Shown: piece after piece, positions 4,940 through 14,643 of the stretch
How the letters are laid out: each line of letters opens with the position of its first letter
How positions within the stretch are numbered: position 1 is the stretch's first letter
Source: Halomarina ordinaria
GTDB lineage: Archaea > Halobacteriota > Halobacteria > Halobacteriales > Haloarculaceae
Direction: 5' to 3'
Length of the DNA: 64,000 bases
NCBI RefSeq assembly: GCF_030553305.1
Contig: NZ_JARRAH010000003.1
Coordinates: 1-64,000, forward strand
Made by a program: the position numbers and the translations under genes
The notes under the pieces: generated by a model
What the model was told of the DNA's origin: nothing
Database searches by the model: none
The model's input: only the letters and a program-made list of their open reading frames with translations

Positions 4940-5755
4940 TCACCCCAGCGCGCCGATTCTGTCTCGGCGCGCTATCTCCGCGACGACGTCCTTCATCCGG
5001 TCGACGTACTCCATCGCGCCTTCTCCGACGACGAGGCCGTGCGCCGGGAGTATCATCCGTGGCTCGAACCGCCGGTTGACGGCGTCTATCTCGCGCTGGA
5101 CCGTCTCCACGTCGACGTACTGGTGCCAGAACAGGACGCGCCCGTGGAACTGCACGAGGCGGCTCTCGGCGATACCGACGTCGAGTTCCTCGACGAGGCG
5201 GAGTCGTTCGCTCGCGAGGTGGGGGAAGCCGAACCAGTCGACGGGAAAGAGCATCCCCTCGGTCCGCTCGCTCATCCACAGCGAGACGGGGGCGTCGAGG
5301 AACGTCGCCTCGTGGAAGTCGACCGTGTACCGCCCGAGGTCGATGCTGTCGCCCTCGCCGACGTGGGTGGCCTCGTCCAGCCGGTAGAGTTCGTGGTCGT
5401 CGCCGTAGCGCGGCGCGACGAGCGTCGCGTCGTGGGCGGCGAGTATCCGCGCGGTGTTCCCGGCGTGGGGGACGTCGGGGTGCGAGACGACGAGGTAGTC
5501 GAGCGGGTCGTCGAGGACGGCGTCGAGCGCCCCGAGGATACGGTCGGTGCTGGCCGGCGAGAGGGTGTCGAGCAGCAGCGTCGCGTCCCCGCCGTCGAGC
5601 AGGTACGCGCACTGCGGGATGTGGACCGACTGCGCCTCGTCGTACCACGACGGGACGGGGTCCATCGACTCGACCATCCCAGAGCGGTCCGGCCCGGGTT
5701 CGTGTATCCAGTACAGCCCCTCGCGTATCTCCCTGAACGACGCGTCGGTGCTCAT
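4940..5755 (-). CDS. MBL-fold hydrolase paralog
   Basis: A 271-residue metallo-beta-lactamase-fold protein. Its landmarks are LLLDTLSP, VVSHPDVPHAGN (the HxHxDH site changed to H-P-D-V-P-H), FPVDWFGFPH and LPAHG near the C-terminus. It is similar along its length to the downstream gene, so the pair probably arose by tandem duplication. The start overlaps the stop of the upstream M20 gene by 4 nt, indicating translational coupling. The nearest well-known analogues are ODP/flavodiiron-type domains, which also lack the canonical second histidine, but no flavodoxin domain is attached. A hydrolytic role on a product of the creatininase or M20 enzyme is plausible and unproven. Confidence 0.8.
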   Translation of the reverse strand: MSTDASFREIREGLYWIHEPGPDRSGMVESMDPVPSWYDEAQSVHIPQCAYLLDGGDATLLLDTLSPASTDRILGALDAVLDDPLDYLVVSHPDVPHAGNTARILAAHDATLVAPRYGDDHELYRLDEATHVGEGDSIDLGRYTVDFHEATFLDAPVSLWMSERTEGMLFPVDWFGFPHLASERLRLVEELDVGIAESRLVQFHGRVLFWHQYVDVETVQREIDAVNRRFEPRMILPAHGLVVGEGAMEYVDRMKDVVAEIARRDRIGALG

Positions 5756-7089
5756 GCGTCGGGGTACCGGTGGAGGAACTGCGCGGTGGTCTCGATGCCG
5801 TTGCGGAAACAGTCCAGGTCCAGGTGTTCGTTCGGCGAGTGGTTCCCCTGGTCGGGGTTCGCGTAGGGGACCACCAGCACCGGGACGTCGAGTTCCGTCC
5901 GGAAGTGCGCCGCCGGGAGGCTCCCGCCGAGCAGCGGCATCTCGACCGGTTCGACCCCCCAGACGGCCTCCATGGCCGCCGCGAGCGGCGTCGCGGCGGG
6001 CGTGTCGAGCGGCGTCTTCATCGGCGGGAACGACCCCATCGCGCTGACCTCGACGTGCGGGTTCCGCGCCTCGACGTGGGCGGTGAGCAGGTCCACGACC
6101 CGCTCCGGGTCCTGCCCGGGGACGAGTCGACAGTCGAGTTTCACCGTCGCCTCGTGGGGGATGATGGTCTTCTTCCCCTCCCCCTGGTAGCCGGCCGTCA
6201 TGCCGTTGATGGTCAGCGTCGGCTCCAGCAGCAGGCGCTCGTAGTACGGCTTGTCCGTGGCGAAGGCGGCCACGCCGAGGCTCTCTCTGAGCGCCGCCTC
6301 GTCGACGGGGATGTCCGCGACCAGTTCGCGGTCGGCCGCCGTGATTCGGACGTCGTCGTAGAAGCCGTCGACGGTCACCTCGTCGCCGTCGAACATCGTG
6401 GCGACGAGCGCGACGAGTTCGTTCGCCGCGTTGGGCACCGGCCCGCCGAAGTTCCCCGAGTGGAGGTCGGCGTTCGCCGTCCGCAGGTCGAGCTGGGCCG
6501 AGGCGATGCCCCGGTTCCCGTAGATGATGGTCGGGCGTCGGGAGGCGTGCATCGGCCCGTCTGCGACGTACACCAGGTCGGTCCCGGCGAGTTCCGCCGG
6601 CGTCCCCGAGAGGTACTCGATGAGCCCGGGACTACCGCTCTCCTCGCCGCCCTCGACGAGGAGCTTGACGTTGACCGCCAGGTCCTCGACGCTCGTCAGC
6701 GCGTCCAGCGCGAACACGTGCGCGAGGAACTGTCCCTTGTTGTCGCCGGCCCCCCGGGCGTATATCGAGCCGTCGCGGACCGTCGGCTCGAAGGCGGGGG
6801 AGTCCCACAGGGCCTCGTCCCCCGGCGGCTGGACGTCGTAGTGGCCGTAGAACGTCACGGTCGGGCGCGACTCGTCGACGACCCGCTCGGCGTAGATGAG
6901 CGGGTTCCGGCTCGTCTCGATGCGCCTCACCTCGTCGAAGTCGTACTCCCCGAGGACCGAGAGCAGCAGGTCAGCACACGCCGCCATCCCCTCGCCCGTC
7001 GCGCTGACGCTCGGCTGGGAGAGCAACTCGAACAGGTGTGTTCGGTACGACGGTAACCCCGCGTCGACCGCGTCCTTCAGTTCACTCAT
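5752..7089 (-). CDS. M20-family metallo-amidohydrolase / dipeptidase
   Basis: A 445-residue zinc enzyme of the M20 (ArgE/DapE/carnosinase) family. It cleaves amide bonds of peptides, N-acyl-amino acids or carbamoyl compounds. The dinuclear site is intact: His83 and Asp85 in YGHYDVQPP, Asp116 in GAGDNKGQ, the Glu149-Glu150 pair in EGGEESG, and a terminal histidine in GGSLPAAHF. The dimerisation (lid) domain includes ADLHSGNFGG. It is cytoplasmic, with no signal peptide. It overlaps by 4 nt with the creatininase-family gene upstream and with an MBL gene downstream, so it belongs to the nine-gene operon and probably processes imported substrate. Confidence 0.88.
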   Translation of the reverse strand: MSELKDAVDAGLPSYRTHLFELLSQPSVSATGEGMAACADLLLSVLGEYDFDEVRRIETSRNPLIYAERVVDESRPTVTFYGHYDVQPPGDEALWDSPAFEPTVRDGSIYARGAGDNKGQFLAHVFALDALTSVEDLAVNVKLLVEGGEESGSPGLIEYLSGTPAELAGTDLVYVADGPMHASRRPTIIYGNRGIASAQLDLRTANADLHSGNFGGPVPNAANELVALVATMFDGDEVTVDGFYDDVRITAADRELVADIPVDEAALRESLGVAAFATDKPYYERLLLEPTLTINGMTAGYQGEGKKTIIPHEATVKLDCRLVPGQDPERVVDLLTAHVEARNPHVEVSAMGSFPPMKTPLDTPAATPLAAAMEAVWGVEPVEMPLLGGSLPAAHFRTELDVPVLVVPYANPDQGNHSPNEHLDLDCFRNGIETTAQFLHRYPDA

Positions 7090-7835
7090 CGGTCGTCACC
7101 CCGTTCGGTCCGCACTCGCTCCGCGAAGGCGGTCACGAGCCTGTTCGTCACGTCCTCGCCCAGTTCGCGTGTCGCGTAGGTCGGGTCGCCCATGTGGCCG
7201 AGTTCCGTCACCGCGTCGAGGCCGTGGGTGGTGAGCGTCGACGTCGACACCTCCCCGACGTAGCCGGGGACGAACTCCTCCTCGCGGACGAGGTCCGGAC
7301 GCAGGTGCCAGACGGAGGCGGTCACCGCCGCCCCGCCGTGGCCCCGTGCCGACGCCGGAATCCCGGCGGCCGCGAGCGCCTCCATCAGGGGGTCGATGAG
7401 CAGTCCCTTGTCGAGGAGGGTGATCACCGCCGCGTCGAGGTCGCCGGCGAGCGAGGGGAGGATGGCGTTCAGCGCCGGGAAGTTCCCCCCGTGCATCGAG
7501 AAGACGACGATGTGCTCGAAGCCGTGGGCGTCGAGGCTGTGACAGTAGTCCTCGAACACCCGCATCAACGTCTCGGGGCGGTAGCTGATGGTGCCGGGGA
7601 ACCCCATGTGGTGTTCCGAACAGCCGGGTCGGATGACCGGCGCGACCAGCGCGTCGCCGAGGGCGCGCGCCAGCTCCACGCCGATGGCCTCCGCCCAGGC
7701 GGCGTCCTTGAGCAGCCCCAGGTGCGGGCCGTGCTGTTCGACCGACCCCGCCGGCACGAGTACCGTCTTCGTCCCGTCTTCGAGCGCCGATTCGACCTCC
7801 GTCCACGTCAACTCCTCGAGTAGTACCGTCTCCAT
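7086..7835 (-). CDS. Creatininase-family amidohydrolase
   Basis: A 249-residue protein of the creatininase superfamily, whose members hydrolyse creatinine or formamidopyrimidines or process peptide cofactors (MftE-like). The first metal motif is clear (GSVEQHGPH, with a downstream Asp in LLKDAAW), as is the MHGGN loop. The usual C-terminal HAGxxETS motif is degenerate here (GHGGAAVTAS), so substrate or metal use may differ. ATG at 7835 is preferred over a longer upstream reading, because homology starts at METVLLEELTW and the upstream ATPase gene ends at 7841. It lies between the ABC ATPase and the M20 gene, which suggests an imported cyclic amide or N-substituted compound as substrate. Confidence 0.82.
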   Translation of the reverse strand: METVLLEELTWTEVESALEDGTKTVLVPAGSVEQHGPHLGLLKDAAWAEAIGVELARALGDALVAPVIRPGCSEHHMGFPGTISYRPETLMRVFEDYCHSLDAHGFEHIVVFSMHGGNFPALNAILPSLAGDLDAAVITLLDKGLLIDPLMEALAAAGIPASARGHGGAAVTASVWHLRPDLVREEEFVPGYVGEVSTSTLTTHGLDAVTELGHMGDPTYATRELGEDVTNRLVTAFAERVRTERGDDR

Positions 7836-7840
7836 CTGTG

Positions 7841-8890
7841 TCACAGTCGCTCCGCGTTCAGTCGTCCGTCGGTCTCCGTCCGGTCGTCGTAGAGGACGCA
7901 CCGCGCCCCCTGGTCGCTCCCCGTCGCGTACATCGGCGGTTCGCCCTCCCGACAGCGGGGCACCGCCTCGGGACACCGGTCGTAGAACCGACACTGGTTC
8001 ATCTCACCGGTCAGGTCGGGGACGGTCCCCTCCAGTTCCACCGGCTCGCGCTCCACGTCCGGGTTGATGACGGGCATCGAGCCGACCAGCGCCCTCGTGT
8101 AGGGGTGTTTCGGGTCGCCGATGACCTCGTCGGTCGGTCCCACCTCGACGAGTTTCCCCGCGTACATCACCCCGATGCGGTCGCACATGTGTTTCAGCAA
8201 CGAGAGGTCGTGGCTGATGTACACCGCGGTGAGGCCGAACTCGCGCTGGAGGCGCTCGAACAGGTCGAGGATGCTCGCGCGGATGCTCACGTCGAGCATG
8301 CTCGCCGGCTCGTCGGCGAGCAGGAACGACGGGTCGAGCGCCAGCGCCCGGGCGATGCCGACGCGCTGGCGCTCGCCGCCGCTCAACTCCGAGGGGTACT
8401 GCTCGGCGTACGCCTCCGCGGGTCTGAGGCCGGCCCGTTCGAGCGTCCGGTACACCCGTGCGTCGCGCTCCTCGCGCGTGCCGATACCGTGGACGTCGAG
8501 CGGTTCCTTCACCCACCGGTAGACCGTCCACCGCGGGTTCAGCGACTGGTAGGGGTCCTGGTGGATGATCTGCGCCTCGCGCCGGAAGTCGAACAGTTCG
8601 TCGTCCGAGAGGTCGGTGATGTCCCGGCCGTCGAAGACGACGCGCCCCTCGGTCGGTTCGAGGAGCCGGATGGCCGTCTTGCCGAGCGTCGTCTTCCCGC
8701 AACCGGACTCGCCGGCGAGGCCGAACGCCTCGCCGTCCCTCACGGTGAGCGAGACGCCGTCGACGGCGCGGACGTACTCGCGGGCCCCCGGGTTGAACAC
8801 GCGCGAGATCATCCCCGTATTGACCGGGAAGTGCTTGTGGAGCCCCTCTATCCTGAGCTTCGCGTCCGCCCCGTCGGGGTCGGCGCTCAT
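7841..8890 (-). CDS. Oligopeptide-type ABC transporter ATPase (OppF/DppF-like)
   Basis: A 349-residue ATP-binding subunit. Its motifs are Walker A GESGCGKTT, a Q-loop near IHQDPYQSLNPRW, the signature LSGGERQRVGIARAL, Walker B FLLADEP and switch H in YISHDL. The C-terminal oligopeptide-transporter extension carries the cysteine pattern CRFYDRCPEA...C...C of the OppD/F class, which is often an Fe-S or metal-binding site. The QSLNPR variant is typical of the F subunit. Start ATG at 8890 overlaps the stop of the D-type ATPase by 4 nt. It drives uptake together with its partner ATPase. Confidence 0.93.
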   Translation of the reverse strand: MSADPDGADAKLRIEGLHKHFPVNTGMISRVFNPGAREYVRAVDGVSLTVRDGEAFGLAGESGCGKTTLGKTAIRLLEPTEGRVVFDGRDITDLSDDELFDFRREAQIIHQDPYQSLNPRWTVYRWVKEPLDVHGIGTREERDARVYRTLERAGLRPAEAYAEQYPSELSGGERQRVGIARALALDPSFLLADEPASMLDVSIRASILDLFERLQREFGLTAVYISHDLSLLKHMCDRIGVMYAGKLVEVGPTDEVIGDPKHPYTRALVGSMPVINPDVEREPVELEGTVPDLTGEMNQCRFYDRCPEAVPRCREGEPPMYATGSDQGARCVLYDDRTETDGRLNAERL

Positions 8891-9942
8891 CGGCCCACCT
8901 CGCTCGGCGACGCGCGCGCCGGGGCCTCCCGGAGCGCCTCCCACGTCTCCTTCTTCGCGGCCTCGGTGCGGAGGTACTCGGCTTCGTCCGCCCGGTGGCA
9001 CTCGACGACGTGGCCGTCGTCGTACGTCTCCGGCTCCGGCGTCTCCGACCAGCAGCGCTCCTCCGCGAAGGGGCAGCGCGGCGCGAACCGACAGCCCTCG
9101 TCCGGGTCGACCAGGTCAGGCGGCGTCCCCGGAATCGAGATGAGCTCCTGCGACTCGGCGGTGACGTCCGGGAAGGCGTTGCGCAGGCCGAGCGTGTAGG
9201 GGTGTCTCGGCGACTTGATGAGCGTGTCCGCGTCGGCGCGCTCGACGAGTCGCCCCCCGTACATCACGGCGATGGTGTCGCACACCTCGGAGACGACCGA
9301 CATGTCGTGAGTTATCATAATCATCGCCGTGTTCAGCTCGTCCTGCAGTTCCGAGATGGTCCGCAGGATGCGGTCCTGGATGACGACGTCGAGGGCGGTC
9401 GTCGGTTCGTCCGCGAGGACGATGGCCGGACTGACCGCCAGCGCGAGGGCGACCATCGCCCGCTGGGCCATCCCGCCGGAGAACTGGTGGGGGTAGTCGT
9501 CGATGCGCGACGGTTCGAGCCCGAGGTCGACGAACAGTTCGCGGGTCCGCTCGCGGGCCTCCGCCTTCGTCGTTTCCGGCTCGTGGACGCGGATGACCTC
9601 GACGATCTGGTCGCCGACGGTGTACACCGGGTCGAAGCCGTTCATCGCGTTCTGGGGGATCATAGATATCTCCTTCCACCGGATGCGACGCCGGAGCTCG
9701 CGCATCGACAGCTCCGTGATGTCCTCGCCGTCGTACTCGATGGTCCCGCCGACCACCTCGCCGTTGTCCGGCAGCAGGCGGATGATGGACTTCGCCACCG
9801 TCGTCTTCCCGCTGCCGCTCTCGCCGACGAGACCGAGCGTCTCGTTCTCGGCCAGTTCGAGCGAGACGCCGTCCGCCGCCCGAACGCTTCCGTTCTCCGT
9901 CCGATAGTACGTCTGGAGGTTCTCGATGTTCAGTAGTGTCAT
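8887..9942 (-). CDS. Oligopeptide-type ABC transporter ATPase (OppD/DppD-like)
   Basis: A 351-residue ATPase. Its motifs are Walker A GESGSGKTT, Q-loop in MIPQNAMNGFDP, signature FSGGMAQRAMVALAL, Walker B IVLADEPTTALD and the H-loop MITHDM. The C-terminal cysteine-rich extension (CRFAPRCPFAEERC...C) is the OppD type. Start ATG at 9942 (MTLLNIENLQTYY); a longer upstream reading is arginine/proline-rich and is rejected. A 160-nt GC-rich spacer separates it from the permease gene, the longest gap in the operon, so an internal promoter cannot be excluded. Confidence 0.93.
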   Translation of the reverse strand: MTLLNIENLQTYYRTENGSVRAADGVSLELAENETLGLVGESGSGKTTVAKSIIRLLPDNGEVVGGTIEYDGEDITELSMRELRRRIRWKEISMIPQNAMNGFDPVYTVGDQIVEVIRVHEPETTKAEARERTRELFVDLGLEPSRIDDYPHQFSGGMAQRAMVALALAVSPAIVLADEPTTALDVVIQDRILRTISELQDELNTAMIMITHDMSVVSEVCDTIAVMYGGRLVERADADTLIKSPRHPYTLGLRNAFPDVTAESQELISIPGTPPDLVDPDEGCRFAPRCPFAEERCWSETPEPETYDDGHVVECHRADEAEYLRTEAAKKETWEALREAPARASPSEVGR

Positions 9943-10104
9943 TGGTCGTGGTCCGTCGTCTCGCCGTCCGGTCCGCGGGCGTCGGCCCGGGTCGGACGGG
10001 GGGTGGGTCGGTCTGTCGGGTCGACGCGGCGCGTCGGTGCGCCCTCGCGTCCGGTCGGGGTCCTCGTCGTCCGGTCGCACCTCGGGACGTGCCGGGGGGT
10101 CGGC

Positions 10105-11061
10105 TCACTCGGCATGGCGGAGCTCCGGGTTGGTGATGCGCTCGAGGGTGCGGCCGATGAAGAACACGGCCATCACCATCAGCATGATACAGACGCCGGG
10201 GGGGACGACCCACCACCAGGCGGTGCGGATGGCGTCGGCGGTGTACGCCTCGAAGAGCATCTGTCCCCACGACACCATGCTCGGGTCGCCGAAGCCGAGG
10301 AACGAGATGCTCGCCTCGGCGAGGACCGCCCACGCGACCGAGAACGCCCCGTAGAGGAACGCCAGCGGGAGCACGTTCGGCAGGATGTGGAGGTACATGA
10401 TGCGCAGGTCGCTCGCGCCGATGGAGCGCGCCGACTCGACGTACGGGCGTTCCTTGTGGCTGAGGACCTGCGAGCGGATGACGCGCGCGGTCGACCGCCA
10501 GAGGATGAGCCCGATGACGATGACGATGCTCGAGATGCTCGGTCCAAGCAGGAACACGAGGACGATGACGAACGGGAGGAACGGCAACCCGTAGGCGATG
10601 TCCGCCACCCGCATGAGGACGTCGTCGACCCAGCCGCCGAAGTAGGCGCTTATCAGCCCCACGTTGACGCCGATGAAGACGGCCATGAACGCGGCGAGGA
10701 AGCCGACGATGAGCGAGATGCGCACGCCAGCGATGACCTGCGAGGCCACGTCGCGCCCGAGGTTCGTCGTCCCGAGGAGGTGGTCCGTAGAGGGTCCCTC
10801 CAGCCGGAGCGCGTTCCCGTCGGCGTCGCGGTTGATGTCGCCGGGGTCGTAGGGGGTGAGCCACGGGGCGAACACGCCCATCAGGGTGAACGTCAGGAGG
10901 ACCACGACCCCGAACTGGCCCATCCGGTCGTCGCGAAAGACGTCGACGACCGACCGGCCGACCCGTCGCACGGCGACGACGGCGTCGCCGAGGCCGGAGG
11001 TGGTCGCCCCGTCCGTCGTCGAGGACGCGGTCGAACCGGGCGTCTCTTCGCCTCCGCTCAT
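10105..11061 (-). CDS. ABC transporter permease (DppC/OppC-like)
   Basis: A 318-residue inner-membrane subunit. A hydrophilic acidic N-terminal tail (about 45 residues) precedes the first span. It has the family region HLLGTTNLGRDVASQVIAG and about six membrane spans. The cytoplasmic EAA loop that contacts the ATPases reads YVESARSIGASDLRIMYLHILPN. A late element, ISFLGFGDPSMVSWGQML, is diagnostic for DppC-type permeases. It forms the translocation pore with the DppB-type permease encoded just upstream. Confidence 0.92.
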   Translation of the reverse strand: MSGGEETPGSTASSTTDGATTSGLGDAVVAVRRVGRSVVDVFRDDRMGQFGVVVLLTFTLMGVFAPWLTPYDPGDINRDADGNALRLEGPSTDHLLGTTNLGRDVASQVIAGVRISLIVGFLAAFMAVFIGVNVGLISAYFGGWVDDVLMRVADIAYGLPFLPFVIVLVFLLGPSISSIVIVIGLILWRSTARVIRSQVLSHKERPYVESARSIGASDLRIMYLHILPNVLPLAFLYGAFSVAWAVLAEASISFLGFGDPSMVSWGQMLFEAYTADAIRTAWWWVVPPGVCIMLMVMAVFFIGRTLERITNPELRHAE

Positions 11062-11133
11062 CGGCGCCCCCCCGTCTCGAACCCGCGGGTCGACTGCTGT
11101 GCGTGCCGCGTGCCGTCGCCGAACGTCGTGTCG

Positions 11134-12111
11134 TTAGTCATACTGCACCCTCGGGTCGAGGTAGATGTACGCCAGGTCCGCCAGGAAGTTCATCACGATG
11201 ACGACCGACCCCATGAGGAAGAACGTCCCCATCGCCATGGGGTAGTCGTTGTAGTTGACCGATTCGACCATCTCGCGGCCCATGCCGGGCCAGTTGAACA
11301 CCGTCTCGATGACGAGCGACCCCCCGATGGCGGTGCCGGAGACGATGGCGACGACCGTGACGATGGGGAGTACCGAGTTCCGAACCGCGTGGTGAAAGAG
11401 GACCCGGTGTTCGGGCAGTCCCTCCGCCTTCTTTATCTCGATGAAGTCCGCCTTCAGGACGTCGAGCATCGTGTTGCGCATCAGCAACATGGGCGTCGCC
11501 ATGTAGTAGAACGCCCCCGTCATGACCGGCAGTACCATGTGGTAGACGAAGTCCCACGCGAGGTAGCGCGACGCGAAGGTGTCGATGTCGGCACCGACCG
11601 CCCGCATCCCGCCCGAGGGGAGGATGCCGAGCCAGAACGAGAAGATAGACAGGAGGACGATGCCCGTCCAGAACTCCGGCGACGACCGGGCGACCAGGCC
11701 GACGAGGATGCCGCCCTTCTCGAAGGTTCGACCGCGGTACCAGCCGAGCAGCGACCCGAACAGGATGCCGACGACGTAGGCGATGACGAGCGCCGTCCCC
11801 ATGAGCAGGATCGTGTTCCAGAACTTCACGACGAGGATGTCCCAGACCGGTTCCCGGTACCGGAACGACGTCCCGAAGCTCCCCGTGAGGAGCTGGCCGA
11901 TGTACTCGACGTACTGGACGTAGAGCGGTTCGTTCAGGCCGAGGTTCGCGATGGTCTCCTCGCGTGCCTCGGCGGACATCCCCTGGGTGACGAACATCGA
12001 TACCGGGTCGCCGGGGGCCGCCCTGAACAGGACGAACAGTATCGTCACGAACGCCCAGTAGGTGACGAACAGCTGCCCGATACGCCGGGCGATGTACTCT
12101 CTCAGTCCCAT
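11134..12111 (-). CDS. ABC transporter permease (DppB/OppB-like)
   Basis: A 325-residue permease. The N-terminus YIARRIGQLFVTYWAFVTILFVLFR contains the first span and is followed by the DppB landmark APGDPV. The EAA loop region is FIEIKKAEGLPEHRVLFHHAVRN. The last part includes IGGSLVIETVFNWPGMG, a DppB signature. About six transmembrane helices are present. It lies directly after the binding-protein gene, giving the standard order A-B-C-D-F for peptide importers. Confidence 0.92.
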   Translation of the reverse strand: MGLREYIARRIGQLFVTYWAFVTILFVLFRAAPGDPVSMFVTQGMSAEAREETIANLGLNEPLYVQYVEYIGQLLTGSFGTSFRYREPVWDILVVKFWNTILLMGTALVIAYVVGILFGSLLGWYRGRTFEKGGILVGLVARSSPEFWTGIVLLSIFSFWLGILPSGGMRAVGADIDTFASRYLAWDFVYHMVLPVMTGAFYYMATPMLLMRNTMLDVLKADFIEIKKAEGLPEHRVLFHHAVRNSVLPIVTVVAIVSGTAIGGSLVIETVFNWPGMGREMVESVNYNDYPMAMGTFFLMGSVVIVMNFLADLAYIYLDPRVQYD

Positions 12112-12225: not shown

Positions 12226-13899
12226 TCACTCCTCCGGGTAGTGGAGCCGACCGTTCTGGAGCGTGTAGCCGGCCTCCTCAAGCGTCTGCTGGGCCCGGCC
12301 GAGGTCGTCGCCGAACTGCCGGACGTCCGGGTTGTGCCAGAACTCGTTGACCGCCGCCATGGGCGTGTGCGTCACCGTCCCCATGCCGTCGAGGACGGTG
12401 TCGACGATGTCCTGTTTCGGGATGCCGTCGGCGAGCGCGTGGCGGACGGCGACGTCGTCGAACGGCGCGCGGTCGAGCTGATAGTTGATGTGGTACCAGC
12501 CGTGGCTCTCGATGCTGCTGATCTCGACGTGGTCCACCTCCGAGTCGAGGCGGTTGACGGTGTCGGGGCCGGGGACCCACCCGATCATGTCGATGGACTC
12601 GTCCTCGAGGAGGCGGACCAGCCCGGACATGTCCGCCCCGGGCACCTTGAGGAGTTCGCCGACGACCGGCGGGTTGAAGTGGTCGGTGTACGCCTCGAGG
12701 CGCATCTCCTCGTCGCGGCGCCACTCGACGAACTGGAACGGTCCGCTGCCGACCGGTTCGGGGTTCTCCCAGTCGAGCGGGTCGGAGACGTCGTCGAGGC
12801 CGTCGGGGACCTCCTCCCAGATGTGCTGCGGGATGATGAACACCTGTCCGAGGCCGATGGGGATGAACGGGGCGAACGGCCGGTCGAGCGAGAACTCGAG
12901 CGACCAGTCGCCGGTGATCTCGATGCTCTCGATGGGGTCGGTGGCGGCGCCCAGCACCGGCGAGTACTCGTCGAGGTACTCGAACGAGAACTTCACGTCC
13001 TCGACGGTGAGGTCCTCGCCGTCGTGCCACTGCTGGCCCTCGCGGATGGTCACGCCGATGGTCGTCTCGTCGACCTCCTCGACGTCCGTCGCGAGCCACG
13101 GCTCGGGGAGCCCCTCCTTGTTGATGCGGACGAGGCGGTCGTAGATGAGCCGCATCGTCTGGGTGTCGTGGGTCGCCGCCCCGTCGGCGGGGTTGAGGTT
13201 GTTCACGTCGGAGGGGTAGCCGAGGCGTATCTGGTCGACGCCGTCGGCGGGCGTCGACTCGATGGCGGTCCAGAAGGACATCAGCCCCTCGCCCATCATC
13301 GTCACGACGTCGTCCAGCCGGTTGGCGTTGTACGGCATCGCCTGCCGCTGGTTCGCGATGGGCGTCCGGGGCTGGTCCTCGGCGAATATCTCCTGGCACC
13401 TGTAGACCGCCTCTTGACGCTCGTCGTCGTCGTAGCGCTCGCGCTGGGTCTCCGCCCACTCGTCGTACTCCTCGTTCTGGTAGTTCACGAAGTTCCGCCC
13501 CCCCTCCTGGTTCTGCGAGGAGTGGTGGAGGTCGTAACAGAAGACGTCCGGGTCGATGCGCTCGGCGCGCCCCGCCCAGTTGAGGGTGAACGAATCGAAG
13601 TCCTGCTGGGTCATCGCCTGGTCGACGATCTGGTTCCAGGCGAGCGGGTTGACGTTCACCTCGAACCCGAGTTCCCGCCACTGGTCGGCGATGAGCTGGC
13701 CGAACTCGTAGCGGACGGGGTCGTAGTCCGACGTCGTCACGATGAGTTCGATGGGGTCGACCGGGTCGCCCGCGCCGCCGCCCCCGCCGCCACCGTTGTT
13801 CGCACCGATACAGCCGGCGAGACCCAGCGTGAGTCCCGTCCCGGCGGCCCCGGCCGTCTTCTTCAGTACCGAACGTCGGGTAGTGTTACCTCGACTCAT
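12226..13899 (-). CDS. Tat lipoprotein solute-binding protein, apparently circularly permuted SBP_bac_5
   Basis: A 557-residue receptor for the importer. It has a twin-arginine signal and lipobox (TRRSVLKKTAG ... LGLAGC) and then a glycine-rich linker, so it is exported folded and lipid-anchored. The order of the mature domains is unusual. Residues ~48-215 (IELIVTTSDYDPVRYEFGQ, LGFEVNVN, FTLNWAGRAERIDPDVF, ...FAEDQPRTPIANQ) match what is normally the C-terminal third of DppA/OppA proteins. Residues ~218-557 (IRLGYPSDVNNLNP, VGSGPFQFVEW, APFDDVAVRHALADG, AQQTLEEAGY) match the normal N-terminal two thirds, and the protein ends exactly where the usual C-terminal third would begin. Length is typical for the family, so this is a rearrangement rather than a duplication. 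First gene of the operon. Confidence 0.9.
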   Translation of the reverse strand: MSRGNTTRRSVLKKTAGAAGTGLTLGLAGCIGANNGGGGGGGAGDPVDPIELIVTTSDYDPVRYEFGQLIADQWRELGFEVNVNPLAWNQIVDQAMTQQDFDSFTLNWAGRAERIDPDVFCYDLHHSSQNQEGGRNFVNYQNEEYDEWAETQRERYDDDERQEAVYRCQEIFAEDQPRTPIANQRQAMPYNANRLDDVVTMMGEGLMSFWTAIESTPADGVDQIRLGYPSDVNNLNPADGAATHDTQTMRLIYDRLVRINKEGLPEPWLATDVEEVDETTIGVTIREGQQWHDGEDLTVEDVKFSFEYLDEYSPVLGAATDPIESIEITGDWSLEFSLDRPFAPFIPIGLGQVFIIPQHIWEEVPDGLDDVSDPLDWENPEPVGSGPFQFVEWRRDEEMRLEAYTDHFNPPVVGELLKVPGADMSGLVRLLEDESIDMIGWVPGPDTVNRLDSEVDHVEISSIESHGWYHINYQLDRAPFDDVAVRHALADGIPKQDIVDTVLDGMGTVTHTPMAAVNEFWHNPDVRQFGDDLGRAQQTLEEAGYTLQNGRLHYPEE

Positions 13900-14136: not shown

Positions 14137-14643
14137 ATGCCGAACTCCGACTTCGAGTCCTTCGACGAGATCGACGGCAAGATACTCCGCGTCCTCGCCG
14201 AGAACCCCCGGACCCCCTACTCCCGGATAACCGAGATACTCGCGGAGTCCGGCCACGAGATGAGCCCCGAAGGGGTCAGGTACCGGGTCGACAAGATCAT
14301 CGACATGACGACGGTGTTCTTCCTCCTCGACCCGCAGGAACTCTCGTGGGAGATCCTCCGCGTCGCGGTCACCACGGAGAAGAGAGACGGGGCGAAGGAG
14401 GCGGCGTTCGACCTGCTCTGTGACCTCCCGTTCTGGCACGTCTCGCGTGGCATCGGGACCTTCGACTACTTCGCCGTCGGGAGCATCCTGTCGGTGCGGG
14501 ACGCGGACGACCTGGTGACGACGGTGCGCGAGGCCGACTGCGTGAACCGGGTCGACTACCTCGTCGTCACGGGCCGGAACCAGGACATGGCCCAGTACCT
14601 CAACATGGAGTACCTCACCGCCGGCAGGGAGGACGACCAGTGA
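14137..14643 (+). CDS. Lrp/AsnC-like winged-helix regulator of the importer operon
   Basis: A 168-residue protein starting MPNSDFESFDEIDGKILRVLAENPRTPYSRI, a typical Lrp/AsnC helix-turn-helix entry. The recognition region is MSPEGVRYRVDKI. The remainder (FFLLDPQELSWEILRVAVTT... HVSRGIGTFDYFAVGSI... VNRVDYLVVTG) has the alternating pattern of an RAM/AsnC ligand-binding domain with the usual Gly-x-x-Asp/Tyr turn. It is divergent from the ABC/hydrolase operon, so it is the most likely regulator of that operon and of itself. An amino acid or the imported compound could be the effector; that is inference. Confidence 0.82.
   Translation: MPNSDFESFDEIDGKILRVLAENPRTPYSRITEILAESGHEMSPEGVRYRVDKIIDMTTVFFLLDPQELSWEILRVAVTTEKRDGAKEAAFDLLCDLPFWHVSRGIGTFDYFAVGSILSVRDADDLVTTVREADCVNRVDYLVVTGRNQDMAQYLNMEYLTAGREDDQ

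Follow-up and report, generated by a model that had tools for sequence, protein, structure and literature searches.

A circularly permuted subclass of cluster C solute-binding receptors, widespread in archaea and bacteria

Results

Genes at the locus

The window analysed here, a stretch of 64,000 nucleotides of Halomarina ordinaria DNA, contains a receptor gene at 12226-13899 on the minus strand, with an ATG at 13899, a stop codon at 12228-12226 and a product of 557 aa. Its translation begins with the Tat lipoprotein signal already indicated by an initial sequence-only reading, comprising residues 1-30 (13810..13899) with an RR motif and the lipobox LAGC ending at Cys30. R8 R9 and G29 C30 are invariant across 26 haloarchaeal proteins of the permuted type described below. 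A Gly-rich tether (residues 31-45; 13765..13809) is followed by the C-type block, residues 46-213 (13261..13764), which corresponds to the canonical C-terminal third of SBP_bac_5 proteins. The N-type block, residues 219-557 (12229..13245), corresponds to the N-terminal two thirds. Between them, a linker of residues 214-218 (13246..13260), delimited by the boundaries of a two-part HMM, connects the former C-terminus with the former N-terminus. All these segments are encoded on the minus strand. Both blocks had been recognized initially, with limits at about 48-215 and 218-557 that are refined here.

Downstream of the receptor gene, on the same strand, are genes for a DppB-type permease (11134..12111; PF00528, PF19300), a DppC-type permease (10105..11061; PF00528, OppC_N) and two ATPases, both matching ABC_tran and oligo_HPY, of the DppD type (8887..10080, true start probably at ~9942) and the DppF type (7841..9001, true start probably at ~8890). 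These Pfam matches, at 7841-12111, to a pair of permeases and a pair of ATPases of Dpp/Opp type agree with the otherwise standard operon described at first. Still on the minus strand, they are followed by genes for a creatininase-family amidohydrolase (7086..7994; PF02633, E 1.4e-58), whose start is uncertain and whose ORF overlaps the preceding one, an M20-family peptidase/amidohydrolase (5752..7089; PF01546, PF07687) and a metallo-beta-lactamase-fold hydrolase (4940..5755; PF00753). A gene for an Lrp/AsnC-type regulator (14137..14643, plus strand; PF13404) lies upstream of the receptor gene in divergent orientation.

Elsewhere in the window, the segment 19008-30536 carries genes for a 2-hydroxyacid dehydrogenase, a TPP enzyme, two family III CoA-transferases, an FAD/FeS oxidase of ~989 aa, an enoyl-CoA hydratase and an isocitrate/isopropylmalate dehydrogenase-type protein, and looks like an organic-acid degradation island.

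Order of the sequence blocks

The whole protein matches SBP_bac_5 (PF00496) with 197.3 bits, compared to a curated cut-off of 32.4, in two stretches: residues 52-130 correspond to the C-terminal end of the profile and residues 265-551 to its N-terminal three quarters. Scanned alone, residues 44-218 match positions 290-366 of 368 (E 1.1e-9, 38.3 bits) and residues 219-557 match positions 2-284 (E 4.9e-47, 161.2 bits), both above the cut-off and in accordance with the C-terminal and N-terminal character initially assigned to them. The canonical linear order of SBP_bac_5 fails here, since profile positions 290-366 precede positions 2-284, and the two-part HMM gives the same swapped order. In a phmmer search against PDB sequences, the best match was AppA (1xoc), to which residues 225-550 align at 28-349 and residues 54-192 at 364-499. 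The same swap is seen in the alignment with CcNikZ-II (8efz), while in E. coli DppA residues 29-368 align to the N-block model and residues 383-515 to the C-block model.

Applying the two-part HMM test revealed the swapped order in 81 proteins, including that of the window, and the normal order in 44, and no protein of either set contained the C or the N part twice. The swap is therefore neither an accident of alignment nor a duplication, and the proposal of a reordering holds. The swapped block order in gene 12226-13899 is confirmed.

Mapped onto AppA, the break falls at approximately residues 350-363 of the C-terminal lobe, after the helix that ends in EAGW/EAGY and before the strand that follows it. 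In the window protein the N-type block ends with a short stretch past the EAGY helix. The first reading put the chain end exactly at the AxxxLEEAGY hinge, but the chain continues 12 residues beyond LEEAGY, and the break falls within the C-terminal lobe rather than at the hinge between lobes. Breakpoints agree across permuted proteins, the tail after the N-block being short as a rule (median 4 residues). The linker measures 5-10 residues in about half of them and mostly 16-37 in the remainder (5-37 in nearly all). Members of one haloarchaeal subclade (L010, L011, L013, L016, L021) carry an extra C-terminal tail of ~30-40 residues past the new end of the fold.

Distribution of permuted receptors

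The initial impression of an isolated oddity had to be abandoned, as the permuted form is common: the 81 proteins of swapped order derive from haloarchaea, other archaea and bacteria, and thereby supply the homologs of equal order that had been sought. One is a second permuted receptor, encoded in the same genome as the window and 29% identical to the first; this genome (3.6 Mb) encodes two permuted and two normal SBP_bac_5 receptors. A protein search through 57 genomes of the same family disclosed more than 30 near-full-length matches in permuted order. Among 116 near-complete haloarchaeal genomes, the permuted profile has matches in 77 at E 1e-80, with three matched by the N-block only, and the permuted gene is present in at least about 74. 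Of 240 genomes sampled from the class to which the Aliihoeflea genome belongs (Alphaproteobacteria), at least 10 had it; both this count and the haloarchaeal 74 are lower bounds, with few candidates scored per genome.

A scan of species genomes, using a five-row alignment as a query (a nine-row alignment was too diverse), placed permuted receptors, besides those of haloarchaea, in Thermoproteota and Nitrososphaerota among archaea. Bacterial hits were distributed over about eight phyla (Pseudomonadota, Deinococcota, Spirochaetota, Actinomycetota, Bacillota, Thermodesulfobacteriota, Chloroflexota and Armatimonadota). Several of the archaeal and bacterial genomes hit are metagenome bins, so that single phylum assignments may be wrong. 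Plasmid-borne homologs occur in Alphaproteobacteria and in haloarchaea. One permuted-receptor match (L026; G023:C1:2805543-2807276) is reported with a single TGA inside, which possibly is just the region of the stop codon or else marks early decay.

Gene neighbourhoods

On a plasmid of Halalkalicoccus jeotgali the gene order is the same from the regulator through the M20 gene, and the receptor is 74% identical. A DppB gene is located near 45 of 49 permuted loci, indicating that the permuted family serves Dpp-type importers. In this operon arrangement, with DppB/DppC permeases and DppD/DppF ATPases, it resembles canonical cluster C receptors. Creatininase genes are near 7 of 49 permuted and none of 34 normal loci, M20 genes near 5 of 49 and none of 34, and M28 genes near 14 of 49 and 2 of 34, respectively; hydantoinase genes also occur near permuted receptors. 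None of these associations is corrected for relatedness.

In one haloarchaeal clade of permuted receptors (L004:1486-3258, equivalent to C1:1099730-1101490 of the window's own genome, and L098, L099 and L105), the gene lies beside that of a PAP2-type phosphatase. Examined loci of this clade have no Dpp permease or ATPase gene nearby, leaving the receptors as orphans, and in Natrinema two permuted copies flank the PAP2 gene.

Residues of the ligand site

DppA grips its dipeptide by Arg383, which contacts the carboxylate, and Asp436, which contacts the amino group (PMC12136057). In the alignment column of Arg383 the window protein has Ser57, and none of the aligned permuted proteins has Arg, so that this ligand-binding residue of DppA is not conserved in the permuted family. 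The loop carrying Asp436 has a two-residue insertion (GRxxRxDPD), and the ambiguous equivalent position varies between E, D and A. Judged by sequence, the GRxxRxDPD motif, which replaces the loop GDNGDPD of DppA, is a candidate ligand-binding feature; it occupies receptor residues 110-118 (~13572-13546, minus strand) and is kept in most operon-linked permuted receptors (alignments A2 and A4). The neighbouring amidohydrolase genes allow a guess that the ligand may be an amide or a peptide-like compound of amino-acid origin.

Phylogeny and selection

A tree was constructed from 460 columns restored to the canonical order, including 81 permuted and 44 normal proteins. One branch, of moderate support, separates all permuted rows from the normal ones. 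The concatenated tree needs a single change of label between permuted and normal, the N-block alone one or two, and the C-block alone two. We also considered that the swapped order might have arisen several times independently, or by fusion of two fragment genes, the C-terminal one placed ahead of the N-terminal one, instead of by a single permutation. The two changes in the C-block tree and the weakness of deep branches with all rows included, where the separating branch has an SH-aLRT support of 33, speak for this alternative. Nevertheless, it is unlikely given the family-wide agreement of breakpoints, the single change in the concatenated tree, the rise of support to 90 after removal of nine long branches, and the absence of doubled parts from the fetched loci.

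The simplest reading is a single ancient event with later transfer between domains. The permutation would most likely have arisen once, probably by a tandem in-frame duplication with loss of both outer parts, and would have spread afterwards among archaea and bacteria, partly via plasmids. A duplication intermediate was looked for in the fetched loci and was not found; the duplication route is what we infer from the present arrangement.

Measured between the window gene and the two relatives closest to it, dN is 0.14-0.20 and dS 1.0-2.4 in both blocks (dN/dS ~0.07-0.16). The permuted protein is thus under purifying selection.

Predicted fold and chain connectivity

AlphaFold2, supplied with 38 permuted proteins, returned a model with mean pLDDT 90.8 and pTM 0.87. 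It is confident over residues 41-557, and pLDDT falls below 50 in residues 1-40 only. On the single sequence without relatives, mean pLDDT was 35.6 and the model was unusable. In the confident model the C-terminal end forms two short strands (546-548 and 551-553), and the C-block opens with a strand at 50-55. This geometry fits a cut site at what would have been a hairpin turn.

Sequential structure aligners pair only residues 217-557, with residues 1 to ~360 of receptors of ~475-540 residues, at Z values of 22-25 against AppA, NikZ, DppA and OppA. The N-terminal two thirds superpose on 1xoc over 330 residues (VIA-align Z 25.4, rmsd 3.5; 1xoc 18-357) and on 1dpp over 320 residues (Z 22.7, rmsd 3.6). 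Covering just about two thirds of each solved receptor listed, residues 217-557 are therefore an incomplete fold. The first third stays unpaired because a permuted protein leaves it without a partner in sequence order. The limitation of aligner rows to 217-557 is expected from permutation and is no sign that residues 46-213 lack a known fold. By homology this segment is the missing third, and this homology together with the confident global model suggests that it sits in place of the canonical C-terminal third.

Another arrangement would be a domain-swapped dimer, with the short linker separating the blocks of one chain and each block completing the fold with its counterpart from a second chain. 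The linkers of just 5-10 residues seen in about half of the members would favour it, and shortened connections are known to produce swapped dimers. However, the model of the monomer is confident throughout the mature chain (pTM 0.87), and in OppA and DppA both termini lie in the N-lobe, so that a short link is enough to join them within one chain; we regard the dimer as quite improbable. The restriction of sequential matches to 217-557 could also be taken to mean that residues 46-213 are an unrelated N-terminal domain attached to a truncated receptor. The chance of this is negligible, because residues 44-218 by themselves score above the cut-off of SBP_bac_5 in the last part of the profile, the block aligns with AppA 364-499 and DppA 383-515, and 217-557 covers roughly the first two thirds, and no more, of each solved receptor listed; the arrangement that the sequence-only reading had opposed to its own, a complete fold in 218-557 behind an unrelated domain, is accordingly absent. 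That the order stems from an error of assembly or annotation, or that the gene is decaying, has no evidence in its favour and is scarcely credible when open frames of the same order are found in many independent genomes and phyla and dN/dS is well below 1 in both blocks.

Discussion

The swapped order and its conservation, the confident fold prediction, the linkage to operons and purifying selection characterize the gene presented here. We hold with high confidence that it encodes a functional cluster C receptor (DppA/OppA/NikA-type), circularly permuted at the gene level, which should adopt the usual fold and serve a DppBCDF importer and most likely had a single origin. With AppA (1xoc), DppA (1dpp), OppA and NikA/NikZ, the permuted family shares both sequence blocks, the predicted fold class and an N-terminal export signal. 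It differs from canonical cluster C receptors in the swapped order of blocks and in having its termini in the C-lobe instead of the N-lobe.

In the proposed scheme, the chain would be broken at a short stretch within the C-terminal lobe, and the old termini, both in the N-terminal lobe, would be bridged by the short linker. The chain would then fold into the usual two-lobed Venus-flytrap, trap a ligand between its lobes and pass it on to the DppBCDF importer, whose genes lie immediately downstream. The Venus-flytrap mechanism and the hand-over to DppBCDF are established for the receptor family (e.g. PMC12136057), and transport by the permuted receptor presumably follows the same course.

Both termini of canonical cluster C receptors such as OppA and DppA are located in the N-lobe. 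The permuted chain starts inside the C-lobe, and for this reason its lipid anchor is expected on the C-lobe and not on the N-lobe. Since many members from bacteria carry ordinary signal peptides that lack a lipobox, tethering cannot explain in general why the swap persists.

A precedent exists in another receptor cluster. TpMglB-2 (Tp0684) of Treponema pallidum is a permuted cluster B glucose receptor for which the subclass ‘Type Ic / Cluster Bc’ was proposed; strands usually near the N-terminus lie near the C-terminus, the form is reported from treponemes and Gram-positive bacteria, and its authors weighed tethering as a possible reason for the permutation (PMC4990184). Both cases are natural, family-conserved circular permutations of an ABC-importer receptor, although TpMglB-2 is a sugar receptor of a different fold class. 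A test for the cluster B (type I) fold was negative for the window protein, whose sequence and listed structure matches belong to cluster C, with SBP_bac_5 homology over both blocks. The permuted family would thus be the cluster C counterpart of ‘Cluster Bc’.

The first reading knew of no prior description. For cluster C none was found in open-licence papers (incomplete in coverage, so that an earlier mention is possible), whereas for permuted receptors at large TpMglB-2 is one. No solved permuted structure is among the best 60 of 113 PDB sequences matching the permuted profile, in which the best stretch covers the N-type block only. NCBIfam holds no model for the permuted form, and the matches obtained there score far below cut-off, most of them in the N-type block.

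We conclude that permuted receptors are a real and widespread subclass of cluster C, apparently undescribed. They probably represent an ancient subclass of single origin (‘cluster Cc’), present in Archaea and Bacteria, unnoticed because its members are filed under SBP_bac_5, and anchored by the opposite lobe in tethered lineages. If so, such anchoring could alter docking of the receptor on the permease. Few natural circular permutations persist across phyla, and the sole described case found for an importer receptor is that of the other cluster. In profile searches permuted and normal proteins are lumped together without notice, and structure templates and substrate predictions for them may be wrong. 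The presence of normal-order relatives in the same genomes offers a direct test of how the location of the chain ends and that of the lipid anchor affect folding, hinge closure and docking.
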